From: Eubacteriales bacterium
GTDB taxonomy: Bacteria > Bacillota > Clostridia > Oscillospirales > CAG-272
Direction: 5' to 3'
DNA: 32,497 nt
NCBI GenBank assembly: GCA_018383975.1
Contig: JAHAZT010000010.1
Span: forward strand, 1-32,497
Shown here: positions 4,430 to 32,497 of the stretch, piece by piece
How the letters are laid out: each line of letters starts with the position of its first letter
How positions within the stretch are numbered: position 1 is the first letter of the stretch
Translations under genes and position numbers: made by a program
Notes under the pieces: model-generated
The model's database searches: none
What the model saw: only the letters and a program-made list of their open reading frames with translations
Told to the model about the DNA's origin: nothing

Positions 4430-5569
4430 ATGATATATCTTGACAACGCCGCCACGACCTTTCCGAAGCCATCCTCGGTGGCAAGGTCGATGGCGAAATG
4501 CATAAAGGAATACTGCGGAAATCCGGGAAGGAGCGCGCATCCGCTCGCATTGAAGTCCGCAGAGGCGGTATTTGATACGAGGAGCGGAATATGCGCCCTT
4601 TTCGGAACGTCAAAGCAGGAAAACGTAATATTTTCATATAATGCCACGCATGCGATAAATAAGGTTCTTTCGGGACTTATACGCTCCGGAGACGGAATTA
4701 TAACAACAAATATGGAGCATAACAGCGTGCGACGTCCGGTTGCGAATCTGTGTGCGATGCGGGGCGCGGAATATTCCGTGATAAACGCGCTCGCACCTGA
4801 TGACGCTCTTATCTCGGAGCTTGAAGCAAAAATCACACCGAGAACGAAAGCAGTCGTGACGATACACGCGTCAAACATATGCTCTGCGTCTCTTCCCGTT
4901 GCGAAAATCGGAGAGGTCTGCCGAAGGCGAAGACTTATTTACGTCGTCGACGCATCGCAGAGCGCAGGCATATACGATATAAACCTCCCCCGCGACGGAA
5001 TAAGCGTGCTGTGCGCTCCGGGTCACAAGGGGCTGTACGGTCCGCAGGGAACGGGATTTGCCGTCTTTTGCGACGATTTTGATTTTTCCCTTCTGTCGCC
5101 GACGGAATTCGGCGGAAGCGGCTTTGCCTCCGCGGATATAACAATGGGGCATACGCCGCCGGAATCATACGAGGCAGGCACGCTGAACGTCCCCGGCATT
5201 GTCGGGCTGGGAGAAGGGATAAAATATATCCGCTCCGTCGGCACGGAAAATATTCTTTCACACGAGAAAAAACTTTTTGCTCTTGCGAGGGAGGGACTGT
5301 CCTCCGTCGACGGAATCAAAATTTATCTGCCCGAAAGAGAAGGCGGCGTTATGCTTTTCAATTCGGACAGAATGAGCGGTTCCGCACTTTCGGCTGCTCT
5401 TGCGGAAAACGGCATCTGCACGCGACCGGGACTTCATTGCGCTCCGACGGCACACGCTGCCGTCGGCACGGGCGGCGACGCCGTCCGTATCAGCTTTTCG
5501 ATTTTCAACGGCGCGGAGGATATTCATTCGCTCGTGACGGCTGTCGGACGGATAACCGCACAAAAATAG
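4430..5569 (+). CDS. Cysteine desulfurase family protein (class V aminotransferase)
   Basis: 379-residue PLP enzyme that releases sulfur (or selenium) from cysteine (or selenocysteine). It starts MIYLDNAATTFPKP, as in the IscS/SufS superfamily. NMEHNS and VDASQSAG flank the PLP site, the PLP lysine lies in APGHKGLYGPQGTG (Lys200), and the catalytic Cys337 lies in RPGLHCAPTAH. The short active-site loop and GLHCAP motif resemble the clostridial family described by TIGR01977 rather than true IscS. No iron-sulfur scaffold gene is adjacent; the neighbour is DUF3343, so the sulfur acceptor may be that protein. The ribosome site is weak, so it may rely on coupling to the upstream gene. Its TAG stop abuts repeat block A. 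Confidence 0.87.
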   Translation: MIYLDNAATTFPKPSSVARSMAKCIKEYCGNPGRSAHPLALKSAEAVFDTRSGICALFGTSKQENVIFSYNATHAINKVLSGLIRSGDGIITTNMEHNSVRRPVANLCAMRGAEYSVINALAPDDALISELEAKITPRTKAVVTIHASNICSASLPVAKIGEVCRRRRLIYVVDASQSAGIYDINLPRDGISVLCAPGHKGLYGPQGTGFAVFCDDFDFSLLSPTEFGGSGFASADITMGHTPPESYEAGTLNVPGIVGLGEGIKYIRSVGTENILSHEKKLFALAREGLSSVDGIKIYLPEREGGVMLFNSDRMSGSALSAALAENGICTRPGLHCAPTAHAAVGTGGDAVRISFSIFNGAEDIHSLVTAVGRITAQK

Positions 5570-5926
5570 GGATTTGCAAGTATGCGAAGCACGCTTGCAG
5601 GCCTCGCCGAGACGGGTTCGGAAACCGCGCAGCGGTTGGAGGGATTTGCAAGTATGCGCAGCATGCTTGCAGGCGTCGCCGAGACGGGTTCGGAAGCCGC
5701 GCAGCGGTTGGAGTGTAAAAAAAACAATCCCTCAGTCGGCTTGCGCCGACAGCTCCCTTTACACAAGGGATTTGCAAGTGTGCGAAGCACGCTTGCAGGC
5801 GTCGCCGAGACGGGTTGTAAAAAAACAATCCCTCACCGCCTGCGGCGGTCCCCCTCTCTCACAAGAGAGGGCTTATTAAAATCAATCCGCGGCTCTGCCG
5901 CACCTTTTCTCTTTGATCTTCTCTCT
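5569..5926 (+). repeat. Modular hairpin repeat, block A
   Basis: Intergenic block of shuffled modules. Two 72-nt units stand in exact tandem (5569-5640 and 5641-5712); each starts GGGATTTGCAAG and contains a GCAAG...CTTGC hairpin plus a GCCGAGACGGGTT core. A linker with hairpin GTCGGC-TTGC-GCCGAC (about 5730-5752) follows, then a third shortened unit (5767-5816), a CCGCC-TGC-GGCGG hairpin, a CCCTCTCT-CACA-AGAGAGGG hairpin and a tail CTTATTAAAATCAAT with CT-rich sequence. The same modules recur in blocks B and D, some inverted. The block begins at the last base of the desulfurase stop codon. The long open frame through it is an accident of the 72-nt (24-codon) unit length. Confidence 0.85.
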
Positions 5927-6001
5927 TCTCTCCTGAATAACTTCCCTCCCGTATGGCGAAAATCAATTTACAAAGATTTTTGCTGTTCAGGAGGAATTTT
6001 T

Positions 6002-8365: not shown

Positions 8366-8502
8366 CCACTTTGCATGGCAGTATGCTGTAACTTTTTTGT
8401 GAACTGACGGTTGGTTGCCGCCTTCGGGTCAAGCGGCTCTGACGTGCCACAGGCACGTCATTCACTACCGCTCCCTTCGATTCTCCTTTATGATTGCAAA
8501 AA

Positions 8503-8535
8503 GAAAAGCACCCCTCTTTGGGTGCTTTCATTTTT
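8503..8535 (-). terminator. Terminator-like hairpin in the left ssrA 3'-end copy
   Basis: Minus strand AGCACCC-aaaga-GGGGTGCT followed by TTTCTTTTT. It is the counterpart of the real ssrA terminator and could act as a second one. Confidence 0.6.
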
Positions 8536-8650
8536 GGTGGACCCGAGGAGAATCGATTCTCGCAGGCTCGACGCCCGCTCGGTCATCGCGGCTCTGACAG
8601 CCGTCAAAGGCTGTCATTCACTACCGCTCCCTTCGATTCTCCTTTATGAT

Positions 8651-8685
8651 TGCAAAAAGAAAAGCCGCCTTTCGGCGACTTTCCT
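8651..8685 (-). terminator. Intrinsic terminator of ssrA
   Basis: Minus strand AGTCGCC-GAAA-GGCGGCT followed by TTTCTTTTT, a few bases after the tmRNA CCA end. Confidence 0.85.
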
Positions 8686-8688
8686 TTT

Positions 8689-9041
8689 TGGTGGACCCGA
8701 GGAGAATCGAACTCCTGTCCGAAAAACGATCCGCGGGGCTTTCTCCGAGCGCATTCCGTCTTTTGAAATTCCCTCCTCACAGCGCCGGCAGACAGGCTCT
8801 GTGTTTCGGTAGCTTTTTAATGCGTGACGGCGTCAAAAGCTAAAAAGCCGTTCACGTTCATCGCTGTGTTATGCCCAAACCGAAGCCGCGATACTCATCG
8901 GCAGGACACCCGCACCCTCAGGCAGCGAGAGCTAATTTGTTATTGTTAGCGTTTAATTTTAGGTTGCACAGTTTTTGGGAGCTTGTGCGGCTCCGCTCGC
9001 TTACCCTGTTTCACATTCCCCGTCGAAACCTTTACGGGCCC
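8689..9041 (-). ncRNA. ssrA: Transfer-messenger RNA (tmRNA)
   Basis: 353-nt tmRNA that rescues stalled ribosomes and tags nascent peptides for proteolysis. The 5' end GGGCCCG pairs over 7 bp (one G-U) with CGGGTCC before the encoded ACCA end. The T-arm is AGGAG-TTCGATT-CTCCT. The 5' segment GTAAAGGTTTCGACGGGG is the conserved tmRNA start. The tag frame ends ...ANNNKLALAA then TGA (8918-8950 if GCT is the resume codon); the frame stays open further upstream, so the exact resume codon is not certain. It lies 4 nt after the smpB stop, the classic smpB-ssrA order, and has its own terminator. The mature 3' end is duplicated downstream. Confidence 0.95.
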
Positions 9042-13274: not shown

Positions 13275-13303
13275 ATCATATCACAACTCTCCCCTTTTTT
13301 CAA
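13275..13303 (-). promoter_or_regulatory. Promoter of manA
   Basis: Minus strand TTGAAA, 17-nt spacer ending GTGA, TATGAT (extended -10). The -35 directly borders repeat block B. Confidence 0.65.
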
Positions 13304-13680
13304 CCTACTTTTCTTTGACCGTACTTTTCTTTGAAAAGAAAAGTAGGCAAAAGAAACTTCAATTATCGGGAAGTCTGTGCAAATTTTTAATTATCTACGC
13401 AGACAGGGCTTTTGCAAAAAGGCAAAAGAAACTTCGGTTATCGGAGAGTTTGTGCAGAGTTTTCAGGCTCCCTTGTGTAAAGGGAGCTCCGCCGCAGGCG
13501 GTGAGGGATTGTTTTTTTACACTCCAACCGCTGCGCGGTTTCCGAACCCGTCTCGGCGACGCCTGCAAGCGTGCTTCGCACACTTGCAAATCCCTCTCTC
13601 ACAAGGGAGGGCTTATTAAAATCAATTCGCGCCGCAGCCGCACCGCTTCTCTTCGATTTTCTCTCTTCTTTTTTATCTCA
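13304..13680 (+). repeat. Modular hairpin repeat, block B
   Basis: Fills the gap between the manA promoter and the next terminator. In order: a partial and a full copy of the TACTTTTCTTT inverted repeat (13322-13345); two copies of a module CAAAAGAAACTTC..TTATCGG..AGT.TGTGCA; the GCTCCCTT-GTGT-AAGGGAGC hairpin (from 13466); the CCGCC-GCA-GGCGG hairpin with GAGGGATTGTTTTTTT; the GCAAG...CTTGC unit of block A in inverted orientation (about 13530-13591); and the CTCTCTCACAAG / CTTATTAAAATCAATTCGCG tail in the same orientation as in block A. No gene is supported; the track ORFs here are products of the repeat. Confidence 0.85.
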
Positions 13681-13709
13681 AAAAGCCGCCCTGAAAGGCG
13701 GCTTTTTTC
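13680..13709. terminator. Bidirectional intrinsic terminator
   Basis: AAAAGCCGCC-ctgaaa-GGCGGCTTTTTT. It serves the minus-strand gene ending at 13721 and would also stop transcription leaving block B. Confidence 0.85.
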
Positions 13710-13720
13710 TGCTCATTTGT

Positions 13721-14152
13721 TCACAGCGACTCGCTGTCTTCTTCGGGCGTTTCGTCCTCTTCGTGTGTTTCGTCTTCTTTCGGCTCGTCATTGAAGAGGT
13801 TTTCAAAATCCTCATCATCGAAATCGTCGTAGTCACATTTTGCCGCGCGTGCTTCTCTGAAAGCCTCCGAAACCTTTCTTGCGCAGCTCGATATTCCTTC
13901 GGAAAGCTTTGATATTCCGCAGGAAATGTTGCCGCGTATCGTTTCGATGTCGCTCTTTGTCGGAAGTCCGGCAAAGTTCACCGCGCACTCGCAGACGCGT
14001 TTGCCATCCTCGTCCGTGGTTTTTTTCGTTTTTACATTGAGAAGAAGCGAGCGGATTTCATACTCGCCCGTTTCCTCGTTTTTCTCGGCGGAATAGGGTG
14101 TCAGAAGTGCCGCGCCCAGAAGAAACCAACCGAAACCTGAACATTTTTTCAT
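13721..14152 (-). CDS. Small protein with hydrophobic N-terminus and acidic tail, unknown function
   Basis: 143-residue protein. The first ~20 residues (GFGWFLLGAALLTPYS) form a short hydrophobic segment, likely a membrane anchor or uncleaved signal. The middle is charged with a helical part (SKLSEGISSCARKVSEAFREARAA). The last ~40 residues are almost wholly Asp/Glu (DDFDDEDF, then repeated EEDETPEED-like runs). No family recognised. It begins 31 nt after the CAAX protease gene on the same strand, with AAAGGGG upstream, so the two are probably co-transcribed. The acidic tail suggests binding to cations or to a basic partner, which is a guess. Confidence 0.65.
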   Translation of the reverse strand: MKKCSGFGWFLLGAALLTPYSAEKNEETGEYEIRSLLLNVKTKKTTDEDGKRVCECAVNFAGLPTKSDIETIRGNISCGISKLSEGISSCARKVSEAFREARAAKCDYDDFDDEDFENLFNDEPKEDETHEEDETPEEDSESL

Positions 14153-22067: not shown

Positions 22068-22763
22068 ATGAATTTTCTTCTCGTATCGTCCGAAGCGGAC
22101 AAATCCGCGCTTTCAAAGCTTTCGGAATTCGGAACGGTCGTTCCGCTTCCGCCCCTGACGTCGCTTCCGAAGCCGATATCCTCGCACGCAGACACGCTTA
22201 TTGCGTCGGTCGGCGATGAGTTTTTCGTATACAAGGATTACCTTGAAAGCGACAAGCTCTTCCGCGCTCTCGGCTTGCCGTGTACCGTCATAAGCGCAGC
22301 AGCGGGAAATGTCTATCCTTTCGACGCCGCGCTGAACTGCTTTACCGTCGGTGACAGGCTCGTCTGTCGTGAAAAAAGTGTCGCTCCCGAAATACTTGCG
22401 TTTGCAAAAAAACGCGGCTACAAAACGCTGAACGTCAGGCAGGGCTATGCCCATTGCTCCTGCGCGACCGTCGGCGACGGAATTCTGACCTCGGACAGAG
22501 GAATCATCCGTGCGGCGAAAAATGCCGGCATTGACTCGGTTTTTGTCTCGCCGAAGGGAATCTCTCTCGACGGCTATTCCGGCGGCTTTATCGGCGGAAC
22601 GTGCGGCACGGTCGGCAGGACCGTTATATTTTCCGGCGATTTGCGACTTCTCCGCGGCGGCGAAGCGGCGGAGGACTTCATCAAAAGCAAAGGCTTTGAC
22701 CCGTATTATCTTTCGGACAAGCCGCCGGTCGATTACGGCGGCATAATCTCCGTCAACATCTAA
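22068..22763 (+). CDS. DUF6873 family protein (GME-like fold)
   Basis: 231-residue protein matching what I know as the DUF6873 family, related in fold to guanidine-modifying enzymes such as arginine deiminase. The most conserved part reads VRQGYAHCSCATVGDGILTSDRGI (about 128-150), with a His and two Cys that could be catalytic; SGGFIGGTCGTVGRTVIFSGDL follows. Substrate unknown. The track begins at a TTG two codons earlier; the ATG here has GGGAG 7 nt upstream. It follows rpmB after a moderate terminator, and its TAA stop is directly followed by repeat block C. Confidence 0.62.
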   Translation: MNFLLVSSEADKSALSKLSEFGTVVPLPPLTSLPKPISSHADTLIASVGDEFFVYKDYLESDKLFRALGLPCTVISAAAGNVYPFDAALNCFTVGDRLVCREKSVAPEILAFAKKRGYKTLNVRQGYAHCSCATVGDGILTSDRGIIRAAKNAGIDSVFVSPKGISLDGYSGGFIGGTCGTVGRTVIFSGDLRLLRGGEAAEDFIKSKGFDPYYLSDKPPVDYGGIISVNI

Positions 22764-23066
22764 CCGTACTTTTCTTTGAAAAGAAAAGTAGGCACCGTAC
22801 TTTTCTTTGAAAAGAAAAGTAGGCAAAAGAAACTTTAGTAATCGGGGATAATTACGGCTCCTTTGTGTAAAGGGAGCTCCGCCGCAGGCGGTGAGGGATT
22901 GTTTTTTACAACCCTTCCACCACTTCGTGGTCCCCCTCCCCTTACACAGGGGAGGCTCATTTAGCCTTCTCCAGTGGGAGAAGGTGGCAGCCGCAGGCTG
23001 ACAGATGAGGTGTACTTTTGCAAAAAAACTTCAATAATCGTGTAATGTAAGCAGAATTTCAGGCAT
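22764..23066 (+). repeat. Modular hairpin repeat, block C
   Basis: Begins at the first base after the DUF6873 stop codon. Two full TACTTTTCTTT inverted repeats (22767-22790 and 22798-22821); one CAAAAGAAACTT module; a 101-nt module (22856-22956) with the GCTCC/GGAGC, CCGCC/GGCGG, CCAC-TTC-GTGG and CCTCCCC-ttacaca-GGGGAGG hairpins; CCTTCTCC-AGT-GGGAGAAGG; GCAGCC-GCA-GGCTG; ACAGATGAGG; and a decayed second CAAAA..AAACTTC module. No gene was found in this 333-nt gap. Confidence 0.85.
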
Positions 23067-23096: not shown

Positions 23097-23897
23097 ATGA
23101 AAATTGAAACTTTTTCTCTCGGCACGTCAAATCCCGACGTGAAAATAACAGCCTATATTGCAGATGACAGCGCGGAGGGCAGGCGTCCCGCTCTGCTCAT
23201 TATCCCCGGCGGCGGATACCGCATCTGCGCCTACTGCGAGGGAGAGCCGTATGCGCTTGAATTCTGTGCAAAAGGCTACAACTGTTTCGTTCTCGGTTAT
23301 TCCGTTATGGGCGCGGCGCGCTTTCCGACACAGCTTATAGAGGCGTCGCTTGCGATGAAATTCATCCGCGACAATGCCGAAAAATACAAAACTGATAAAG
23401 ACAGAGTGTTCGTTATAGGCTCGTCCGCAGGCGGTCACCTTGCCGCAATGCTGGGCACGATGTGGAACGACAAACTCGTCACTGACGCAATAGATATGCC
23501 CAAGGGCTACAACAGACCGACGGGAATGCTTCTCTGCTATCCCGTTATAACGTCGGACAGAAAATATGCCCATGAGGACTCCTTCCGCAAGCTGCTCGGC
23601 AATGAAAACTTAAATGACGACGCAATGCGCAAAAAAGTTTCCATAGAGCGCGCCGTGACGAAAAAAACCGTCCCTGCGTTCATATGGCACACAAGGACGG
23701 ACAGCGGCGTGCCCGTTATGAACTCGCTCCTTCTGGCGGAGTCGCTTGCAAAGAAAAATATCCCCTATGAACTGCACATCTATCCCTCTGGCGGACACGG
23801 AATGTCGCTTTGTCAAAAAAATCTCGGCTCCGAAAATGACTATAATCACGACTGGGTGCGGTGCGCGACGCATTGGATGCGGTCGTTTGATAAATAA
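23097..23897 (+). CDS. Alpha/beta hydrolase (acetyl esterase-like), copy 1
   Basis: 266-residue serine esterase of the alpha/beta-hydrolase fold, like carbohydrate acetyl esterases of gut bacteria. Oxyanion motif IPGGGYR (about 36-42), nucleophile elbow IGSSAGGH (Ser110), acid in WHTRTDSGVPV and base His in YPSGGHGMSL. No signal peptide, so it should be cytoplasmic and act on short imported substrates; the actual substrate is unknown. AAGGAGG lies 6 nt before the ATG. A close paralogue follows 23 nt later. Confidence 0.85.
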   Translation: MKIETFSLGTSNPDVKITAYIADDSAEGRRPALLIIPGGGYRICAYCEGEPYALEFCAKGYNCFVLGYSVMGAARFPTQLIEASLAMKFIRDNAEKYKTDKDRVFVIGSSAGGHLAAMLGTMWNDKLVTDAIDMPKGYNRPTGMLLCYPVITSDRKYAHEDSFRKLLGNENLNDDAMRKKVSIERAVTKKTVPAFIWHTRTDSGVPVMNSLLLAESLAKKNIPYELHIYPSGGHGMSLCQKNLGSENDYNHDWVRCATHWMRSFDK

Positions 23898-23920
23898 TTG
23901 CGAAAAGGCAGGAAAATATA

Positions 23921-24724
23921 ATGCAAACAGAAGTTTTTCATCTTTCCGGAACGAATCCCGACGTCAGACTGACGGCTTATCTCGCAGGGACGTATGATCG
24001 TATCCCTCATAACAAAAAACGTCCTGCGGTGCTTGTCATTCCCGGCGGGGGCTATGCATACTGCTCCGCAAGAGAAGCGGAGCCTATCGCGCAGGAATTT
24101 CTTGCGCACGGCTACAATGCTTTCGTTTTCGATTACTCCGTAAACGGCGCGGCGGTTTATCCGACGCAGCTCATAGAAGCGTCGCTTGCGATGAAATTTC
24201 TCCGCGACAACGCCGAAAAGCTCCGTATCGACCCCGAAAGAATTTTCGTCATCGGATTTTCCGCCGGAGGTCATCTCGCCGCAATGCTGGGCACGATGTG
24301 GCACAGGGACTTTATTTATGACGCCGTCGATATGCCCTACGGCTACAACAAGCCGACGGGGATGATTCTTTGCTACCCCGTTATAACAAGCGGAAAATAT
24401 GCGCACAGAGGCTCGTTTGACAACCTCCTCGGCGACGGAAAAAACGATAAAAAGCTGCTTCATGAGGCGTCCCTCGAATACGCCGTGACGAAAAAAACCG
24501 TCCCTGCGTTTATCTGGCACACCCGCGCGGACAGCACTGTCCCCGTCATAAATTCGATACTCTTTGCAGAGGCGCTCTCAAAGAAAAACATTCCTTACGA
24601 GCTGCATATATATCCGGACGGCTGGCACGGAATGACGCTTTGCCGCGACTTTCTTGACGCGGAAAACGAATACATCGGCGATTGGGTCCGCTCATGCGAG
24701 CATTGGATGAAGAACACAAAATAA
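23921..24724 (+). CDS. Alpha/beta hydrolase (acetyl esterase-like), copy 2
   Basis: 267-residue paralogue of the preceding gene, alike along its whole length (shared LIEASLAMKF, GGHLAAMLGTMW, GYNKPTGM and AVTKKTVPAFIWHTR segments). The catalytic set is intact: IPGGGYA, IGFSAGGH (Ser nucleophile), WHTRADSTVPV (Asp) and YPDGWHGMTL (His). The elbow GFSAG versus GSSAG and the His motif GWHGM versus GGHGM differ from copy 1, so substrate range may differ. AGGAAAA precedes the ATG. The pair forms an operon closed by a terminator. Confidence 0.85.
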   Translation: MQTEVFHLSGTNPDVRLTAYLAGTYDRIPHNKKRPAVLVIPGGGYAYCSAREAEPIAQEFLAHGYNAFVFDYSVNGAAVYPTQLIEASLAMKFLRDNAEKLRIDPERIFVIGFSAGGHLAAMLGTMWHRDFIYDAVDMPYGYNKPTGMILCYPVITSGKYAHRGSFDNLLGDGKNDKKLLHEASLEYAVTKKTVPAFIWHTRADSTVPVINSILFAEALSKKNIPYELHIYPDGWHGMTLCRDFLDAENEYIGDWVRSCEHWMKNTK

Positions 24725-30423: not shown

Positions 30424-32145
30424 ATGATGAAGGTTTCAAAGCTTTTGGGAGAACATTTCAAGGAAGCTCCGGCAGACTGTCAGATTGCGAGCCACGCGCT
30501 GATGGTCAGAGGAGGATATATAAAGCAGGTCGGCACGGGCATTTTTTCGCTCTATCCGTCCACAAAGCGCATAACGAGAAAGATTGAAAACATTCTGCGC
30601 GAGGAAATGGACAGAATCGGCGGTCAGGAAGTGCTGTTCCCCGTCGCAATGCCGGCGTCGATATGGAGAGAATCCGGCAGATATGATTCCATCGGTAACG
30701 AGCTGCTTCGCTTCAAGGACAGAAACGGTGCCGATATGGTACTCGGAATGACGCACGAGGAGGCTGCCGTTCATCTTGCGCGCGTAGCGGCGCAGACATA
30801 CACTAAGTTTCCTTATATGATCTATCAGATACAGACAAAATTCCGTGACGAGCCGCGCGCCCGCGGCGGACTTATCCGCGTCAGAGAGTTTACCATGAAG
30901 GACGCATACTCCTTCCACACCTCCTGGGACGACCTCCTCCGTTATTACGATGAATGTTATGAGGCGTATAATCGCATTTTCCGTCGCTGCGGCGTGAAGA
31001 ATTTTGTTGCGGTAAAGAGCGACTCCGGTATGATGGGCGGCAGCGTGTCGCACGAATTTATGCTCATTTCGGATATCGGCGAGGACACGCTCGTCATCTG
31101 CTCCGAATGTGATTATAAATCGAATATGGAGGCGGCGGACTGCATTGTCCACAATCACGAATGTGAAATCGAGCCGCTTGAAGAGGTATCCACTCCTCAT
31201 CAGAAAACTATCGAAGAGGTCTGCAATTATCTCCATGTTCCGAAGGAGCGTTCCTGCAAGGCAGTTCTGTATCAGCGCAATGCGGATGACTCCCTTGTCA
31301 TCGTTTTTGTCCGCGGCGACCTTGAAATCAACGAAACAAAGCTCCGCAATCATCTCCGTGCCGACGTTCACCCCGCAACCGTTACGGAAGCAATGAACAT
31401 TCACGCCGGCTTTATCGGTCCCATAGGACTTCCGGAGGGCATAACCGTTGTTTATGACGAATCCCTCAAGGGAATCAATTCTCTTGTTGCGGGCGCAAAC
31501 AAGGACGATACGCATTTCAGAGGACTGAACATTGCAAGAGACGTCGGCGAGGTCGAGTACGTCAGCGTTGCAAAAGCAACCGAAGGCGGCATCTGCCCCG
31601 TTTGCGGCAAGCATTCGATAACAATCAAAAAAGGCATTGAAATCGGCAACATATTCCAGCTCGGAACGAAATATACAAAGTCGATGGGGATGGAATATAT
31701 AGACAAGAACGGTGAAACGCAGAACCCCATTATGGGTTGCTACGGTATCGGCGTCGGCAGGCTTGCGGCGTCCATCTGCGAGGAAAGTCACGATGATTAC
31801 GGTCCCATCTGGCCGATGAGCATCGCCCCGTGGCAGGTTGAAGTCTGCAACCTCCGTTCGGATGACGAAAATGTCACAAAAACCGCGGAAAAACTCGTCG
31901 CCGACCTTGAAAAGCTCGGTGTTGAGGTGCTCTATGACGACAGAGATATCCGTCCCGGCGTTATGTTTGCCGATGCCGACCTTTACGGCGTTCCCGTCAG
32001 AGCCGTTGTCAGCCCCAAGACCTGTGAACGCGGCGTCATTGAGATTTCATACAGGGACAAGAGCGCAAAGTATGACGTTGCGATAGCCGATGCGGCAGGC
32101 AAGCTCCGCGAGGTCGTCAGCGAAATGCTCGCGCAATACGAATAA
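30424..32145 (+). CDS. proS: Prolyl-tRNA synthetase (bacterial type with editing domain)
   Basis: 573-residue class II synthetase charging tRNA-Pro. Order: N-terminal ASHALMVRGGYIKQVGTGIFSLYP; class II motif 2 region TKFRDEPRARGGLIRVREFTMKDAYSFH; an inserted editing (YbaK-like INS) domain at about 225-400 with CKAVLYQ and GDLEINETKL, which removes mischarged Ala; motif 3 region MGCYGIGVGRL; and the anticodon-binding domain from about 470. This is the bacterial, not the archaeal/eukaryal-like, form, with normal length. The track ORF starts 82 codons earlier, over the terminator and promoter; the ATG here has AAGGA upstream. Met2 is an alternative start one codon later. Repeat block D starts directly after the stop. 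Confidence 0.96.
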   Translation: MMKVSKLLGEHFKEAPADCQIASHALMVRGGYIKQVGTGIFSLYPSTKRITRKIENILREEMDRIGGQEVLFPVAMPASIWRESGRYDSIGNELLRFKDRNGADMVLGMTHEEAAVHLARVAAQTYTKFPYMIYQIQTKFRDEPRARGGLIRVREFTMKDAYSFHTSWDDLLRYYDECYEAYNRIFRRCGVKNFVAVKSDSGMMGGSVSHEFMLISDIGEDTLVICSECDYKSNMEAADCIVHNHECEIEPLEEVSTPHQKTIEEVCNYLHVPKERSCKAVLYQRNADDSLVIVFVRGDLEINETKLRNHLRADVHPATVTEAMNIHAGFIGPIGLPEGITVVYDESLKGINSLVAGANKDDTHFRGLNIARDVGEVEYVSVAKATEGGICPVCGKHSITIKKGIEIGNIFQLGTKYTKSMGMEYIDKNGETQNPIMGCYGIGVGRLAASICEESHDDYGPIWPMSIAPWQVEVCNLRSDDENVTKTAEKLVADLEKLGVEVLYDDRDIRPGVMFADADLYGVPVRAVVSPKTCERGVIEISYRDKSAKYDVAIADAAGKLREVVSEMLAQYE

Positions 32146-32497
32146 CCTTCTTTTCTTCGAAAAGAAAAGTAGGCACCGTACTTTTCTTTGAAAAGAAAAG
32201 TAGGCAAAAGAAACTTCAGTTGTCGGGGAGTCTGTGCAGATTTTTAATTATCTGCACGGACGGGGTTTGCAGAAAGGCAAAAGAAACTTCGGTTATCGGG
32301 GAGTTTGTGCAGATTTTTAATTAAGCCTTCCCCAGTGGGGGATTTGCGAGTGCACGCAGTGCTCTTGCAGGCCTCGCCGAGACGGGTTTGGATTTCGCCT
32401 CCCCTGTGTAAGGGGAGGGGGACCACGAAGTGGTGGAAGGGTTGTAAAAAACAATCCCTCACCGCCTGCGGCGGAGCTCCCTTTACACAAGGGAGCC
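32146..32497 (+). repeat. Modular hairpin repeat, block D (cut by the window end)
   Basis: Begins at the first base after the proS stop. A variant and a perfect TACTTTTCTTT inverted repeat; two CAAAAGAAACTTC modules (about 32202-32245 and 32278-32323) like those of block B; CTTCCCCAGTGGGG; a GATTTGCGAGTGC unit with GCCGAGACGGGTT as in block A; then 32397-32497, the reverse complement of the 101-nt module of block C. No gene is supported in this stretch. Confidence 0.85.

Follow-up and report, generated by a model that had tools for sequence, protein, structure and literature searches.

Are the short palindromic repeats scattered between the genes of this gut bacterium targeted to gene ends, or do they persist there because they serve the mRNA? 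Extragenic palindromes near gene 3' ends are already known. The repeat studied here makes exact contact, at a distance of 0 nt, with native stop codons, across genera and with covarying stems, which is a sharper rule than those in the literature searched and makes the question testable. In the source genome and in other gut bacteria, its position exactly at gene ends seems to reflect either placement or retention. A name for its stop-contacting hairpin was not found in the open-licence literature searched, and we judge its novelty by that and by general knowledge.

Four mosaic blocks and their modules

The window, that is, the whole stretch of 32,497 nucleotides analysed, makes up the whole of contig C32 in a MAG of 1,476,605 bases (1.48 Mb) in 90 contigs, with a completeness of about 92.6%. 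The four blocks that the initial annotation had placed at 5569, 13304, 22764 and 32146 were all found (Table 1), and the contacts reported for three of them, with the stops of the cysteine desulfurase (TAG), DUF6873 (TAA) and proS (TAA) genes, are real; the fourth block does border a -35-like hexamer of manA, as had been described. Each module had been called a hairpin, and all seven window segments that were folded form one (7/7, z -1.6 to -3.8). The blocks had also been said to carry no gene and not to be insertion sequences, in agreement with which we found no gene inside them, no Y1 transposase in the genome, and no match to the blocks in plasmids, phages or viral contigs. On this last result a phage, plasmid or viral carrier was rejected; a search for DUF6873 in viral contigs found none. 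The only Rfam matches in the window were the tmRNA and tRNA, and the blocks matched no curated RNA family.

Table 1 Features of the repeat blocks in the window (a prime marks a module in reverse orientation).
Feature	Position	Strand	Description
Cysteine desulfurase TAG stop	5567..5569	+	overlapped by the start of module A
Block 1	5568..5932	+	A A P' A B' E
manA -35-like hexamer TTGAAA	13298..13303	-	touches the foot of hairpin C at 13304
Block 2	13302..13709	+	half C, C, D, D, B, A', Q', E
Hairpin C array, block 2	13304..13349	+	half unit CCTACTTTTCTTTGA plus a full unit
Block 3	22759..23041	+	C C D B G' F D
DUF6873 gene TAA stop	22761..22763	+	native end; C begins at 22764
Hairpin C, block 3	22764..22825	+	two 31-nt units; 0 nt from the DUF6873 stop
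Block 4	32141..32497	+	C C D D F A G B'; the contig end cuts the block
proS TAA stop	32143..32145	+	native end (EMLAQYE; sister species EEMLAQYK); C begins at 32146
Hairpin C, block 4	32146..32206	+	two units, 0 nt from the proS stop; outer unit CCTTC..GTAGG

Two other repeats were noticed in the window. An exact 53-nt segment recurs 156 bp apart and is followed by a second, diverged repeat (8457-8710), which adjoins the tmRNA gene (8689-9041), and two tandem paralogous esterase-like genes (23097-24724) share about 72-81% identity over repeated DNA segments.

Pattern searches of the MAG contigs gave 69 module clusters genome-wide, about one per 21 kb, a lower bound since many contigs end inside blocks. 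Hundreds of blocks per genome had been projected from the window, and the assembly holds fewer, 69 clusters per 1.48 Mb. The right end of the window itself falls within block 4, and because other contigs too begin or stop in blocks, the repeats limit the assembly and break it at many contig ends. Matches numbered 65 for module C, 77 for B, 36 for A and 14 for F (palindromes can count on both strands), against none for reversed-pattern controls. The clusters were read with their flanks, coverage being of the regions around pattern matches, and genes were called by a codon-usage score that was checked on the window.

These clusters follow a grammar: the stop, where there is one, is followed by one to three copies of C, one or two of D, then middle modules (T, F, Q, B, P, G and A) in either orientation, with E last. 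The initial view that modules are shuffled in order and orientation therefore holds for the middle modules A, B/P, G, Q, F and T, but not for C, D and E, which are fixed in both. Module T is terminator-like (AAAAACAGAGGTGATTTCTCATCTCTGTTTTTT).

Exact contacts with stop codons and terminators

Hairpin C consists of CCTACTTTTCTTT..AAGAAAAGTAGG followed by the tail CAAAAGAAAC; its stem is 12-13 bp long, and its conserved purine tail CAAAAGAA is close to invariant. Stem pairs 1-5 covary in other genomes, with pair 4 Watson-Crick in 91 of 105 sequences versus 43.8 expected if the two sides were independent, figures that describe the set and carry no probability, related sequences being counted more than once. 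The GTAG(G) of C lies within the paired stem and is swapped for GAAGG, GCAGG, GTAAG, GTAAC and other variants, with the opposite strand changing to compensate. In the other genomes pair 6 does not form; in copies that abut a stop this position is occupied by the stop's last base, so that pairing ends at the stop codon.

The genome contains 54 oriented C arrays, and in 44 of them a gene 3' end lies on the foot side. At least 34 of the 54, all among these 44, begin on the first base past the stop (0 nt), whereas only three were scored at +1 to +30 nt. In eight others the array faces the 5' end of a gene, 56-387 nt off. Inspection placed two further arrays at 0 nt: C40:3148, which is outside the 34 because its short upstream gene scored below the cut-off, and C65, which was scored among the three at +1 to +30 because its first half-unit is degenerate. 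An excess near stop codons, the point on which the initial proposal turned, is thus present genome-wide and recurs in other genera. The module making the contact is C, the contact of A at 5569 in block 1 being nearly unique, and its orientation is that of the first structure that would be transcribed past the coding region.

The stops themselves are native. The proS product aligns end to end with those of three congeners (Table 1), the C-terminus of DUF6873 differs from its orthologues' ends by no more than one or two residues, and at other 0-nt sites family profiles reach the C-terminus (aspartate-semialdehyde dehydrogenase, MutS2, GalE, dipeptidase and ObgE) or end within a few residues of it (RadA and YifB). 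The repeat therefore does not supply these stops, and the genes concerned are mutually unrelated, scattered housekeeping genes. At four C arrays and at the degenerate C61, an ORF runs into the hairpin and ends at the loop TGA, the five proteins finishing in ..TFL before the stop. A PdxR-like gene (L168:348-1403) ends at the hairpin loop TGA at profile position 358 of 448, with about 90 aa lost at the hairpin foot, a truncation that reads as an insertion.

No common base or motif precedes the copies away from stops, and a fixed target motif (TRA, or an A before the hairpin) was rejected on that ground. The stops show a weak post hoc bias towards YTGA/ATAA (33/37 versus 106/167).

The far-end module E has a contact of its own. 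Read from the neighbouring gene, it starts exactly at the end of that gene's terminator T-tract in 14 of 21 scored copies, the terminator stems preceding it varying from gene to gene, and six of the remaining seven come after a CCGCNNNGCGG hairpin. In block 2, what follows E is the intrinsic terminator of the convergent gene at 13721-14152. Group IIC introns are the one case of comparable targeting known to us. Their insertion is terminator-directed, and they resemble E in lying directly after intrinsic terminators (PMC7923331); unlike them, the present blocks have no intron RNA core, reverse transcriptase or Rfam match.

Occurrence in other genomes

An exact long C had no match outside the source genome, and a relaxed C pattern run over 85,462 species genomes returned 52 loci, and roughly 15 of the sites lie at 0 nt. 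These relatives come mostly from Oscillospiraceae and other gut Clostridia MAGs. In six other genomes, where 71 copies were scored, 15 lie at 0 nt on the foot side and nine are spread over +1 to +20, no stop occurs within 27 nt on the tail side, and most copies are away from stops. Three of the four hairpins scored in the congener G002 sit at 0 nt, and the fourth has the G of TAG as a stem base; further 0-nt contacts were seen in genomes G255, G019 and G062. The distribution is patchy, one exact stem, which misses the source genome's own variant, matching 10 of 394 genomes of the order. The genus comparison covered five species at about 70-75% DNA identity, with no other genome in the genus of G008.

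Contacts of other kinds were also observed. In three genomes (L291 and L377, Flavonifractor sp. An92; L409 and L410) the hairpin lies reversed in the 23S-5S spacer, with its foot against the 5' end of 5S rRNA, and in a Nitrospirae MAG (L382) the hairpin follows a tRNA gene with no gap after the CCA end, an adjacency that is not general. Genome G011 (L312-L331) has a conserved GGATGCGY segment that usually precedes the hairpin, with distances of 5-26 nt from stops, not 0.

Proposed targeted insertion and the competing explanations

The account we favour, to which we give roughly even confidence, is that the blocks are a REP-like, non-coding mosaic repeat inserted preferentially at gene ends and then retained as a 3'-end structure. 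Targeted insertion is suggested by the exact zero distance of 34 of the 54 C arrays, with three at +1 to +30, and by the 15 of 71 copies at 0 nt elsewhere, no copy there having a stop in the first 27 nt on its tail side. Also in favour of this account, the stops are native, the stems covary and the stop's last base is left unpaired, most scored copies of E meet T-tract ends exactly, five ORFs end at the loop TGA and PdxR is cut short, and the spread among genomes is patchy. Against it stand a mobilising enzyme that was not found, with Y1 transposase absent from the source genome, the lack of a common preceding base or motif at copies away from stops, and the other genomes, where most copies are away from stops and two 5S contacts are reversed.

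Copies would be placed by insertion or by copying, in a step with a preference for gene ends that probably works on a single strand in folded form and depends on some factor acting in trans. The placed block would form the 3' UTR, as a putative mRNA-end structure and barrier to 3' exonucleases, sometimes with a terminator-like T, and might gather its middle modules through further insertion. A fixed DNA target is inadequate, since it leaves unexplained both the copies that are away from stops and the contacts with 5S and tRNA. An unlikely reading is that RNA ends or translation, and no DNA target motif, would guide the insertion.

Selection by itself is a possible but clearly less probable explanation. 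The hairpin would then insert anywhere between genes, and the copies touching stops would be kept as their stem protects the end of the mRNA or curbs run-on by ribosomes, in keeping with the strict orientation relative to the gene, the stem covariation, and the copies that are common elsewhere in the intergenic DNA of other genomes. A stem at +1 to +10, however, should serve nearly as well, yet those distances are almost empty in the source genome. Selection alone accounts for the orientation but not for the near-absence at +1 to +30, and we favour gene-end-targeted insertion over it as the reason for the exact zero distance.

It is unlikely that we are dealing with an ordinary REP/BIME moved by a RAYT transposase, with a gene-end preference arising merely from short intergenic DNA. 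The broad definition of a REP, a short palindrome in many intergenic copies by ORF 3' ends, does describe the repeat. REPs of the GTAG and CGTC superfamilies and their BIME mosaics are likewise clustered, intergenic palindromes near the 3' ends of ORFs, where neighbouring genes converge or run in the same direction, and a TAG stop often comes from the GTAG tag (Di Nocera et al. 2013, PMC3733652). In the present repeat, by contrast, the stop is native and is contacted at exactly 0 nt, a peak sharper than 'less than 20 bp', the CAAAAGAAAC tail is conserved, and the covarying stem ends carry no fixed GTAG or CGTC tag. GTAG REPs have a conserved unpaired GTAG at the palindrome end, whereas the GTAG(G) of C is paired and variable; hairpin C also lacks the combination of terminal CGTC, 8-9 bp stem and CCA tail that marks CGTC REPs, and module F has CGTC and CCA beside a 5-bp stem only. 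No RAYT (Y1 transposase, PF01797) was found in the source genome (92.6% complete), on which ground a RAYT-driven REP was rejected, or in G002, G005, G006, G007, G011 and G012.

Pneumococcal BOX has a modular boxA-B-C structure, and we know of no reported exact stop-codon contact for it. It resembles our blocks as a modular, non-coding, intergenic composite (BOX, RUP and SPRITE are treated in PMC3049150) and differs in its modules; in the present repeat only the order of C, D and E is fixed.

That the stop codon is part of the element, which would make every inserted copy look stop-adjacent, is very improbable: GTAG REPs often provide a TAG stop (PMC3733652), and the loop TGA of the five ORFs and the stem-base G in G002 point the same way, but TRA does not precede copies away from stops. 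The native C-termini led us to reject it for the 0-nt class. Least probable of all are integron-like attC sites behind cassette genes, which share a folded-strand palindrome directly after ORFs, since the genes here are scattered housekeeping genes in no array and the visible stem ends lack the RYYYAAC/GTTRRRY boxes of attC.

Two other occurrences of similar hairpins were seen. The congener G002 has several C-like units in degenerate form, spaced by about 100 bp, close to a contig end (G002:C31:65457-65893). Paraburkholderia tagetis (L374, L379, L383 and L226) holds a related hairpin in 150 copies. Most of these form pairs with a spacing of 399-418 bp, and the pairs sit in an element of about 550 bp with long near-perfect inverted ends, which looks like a separate, MITE-like element.
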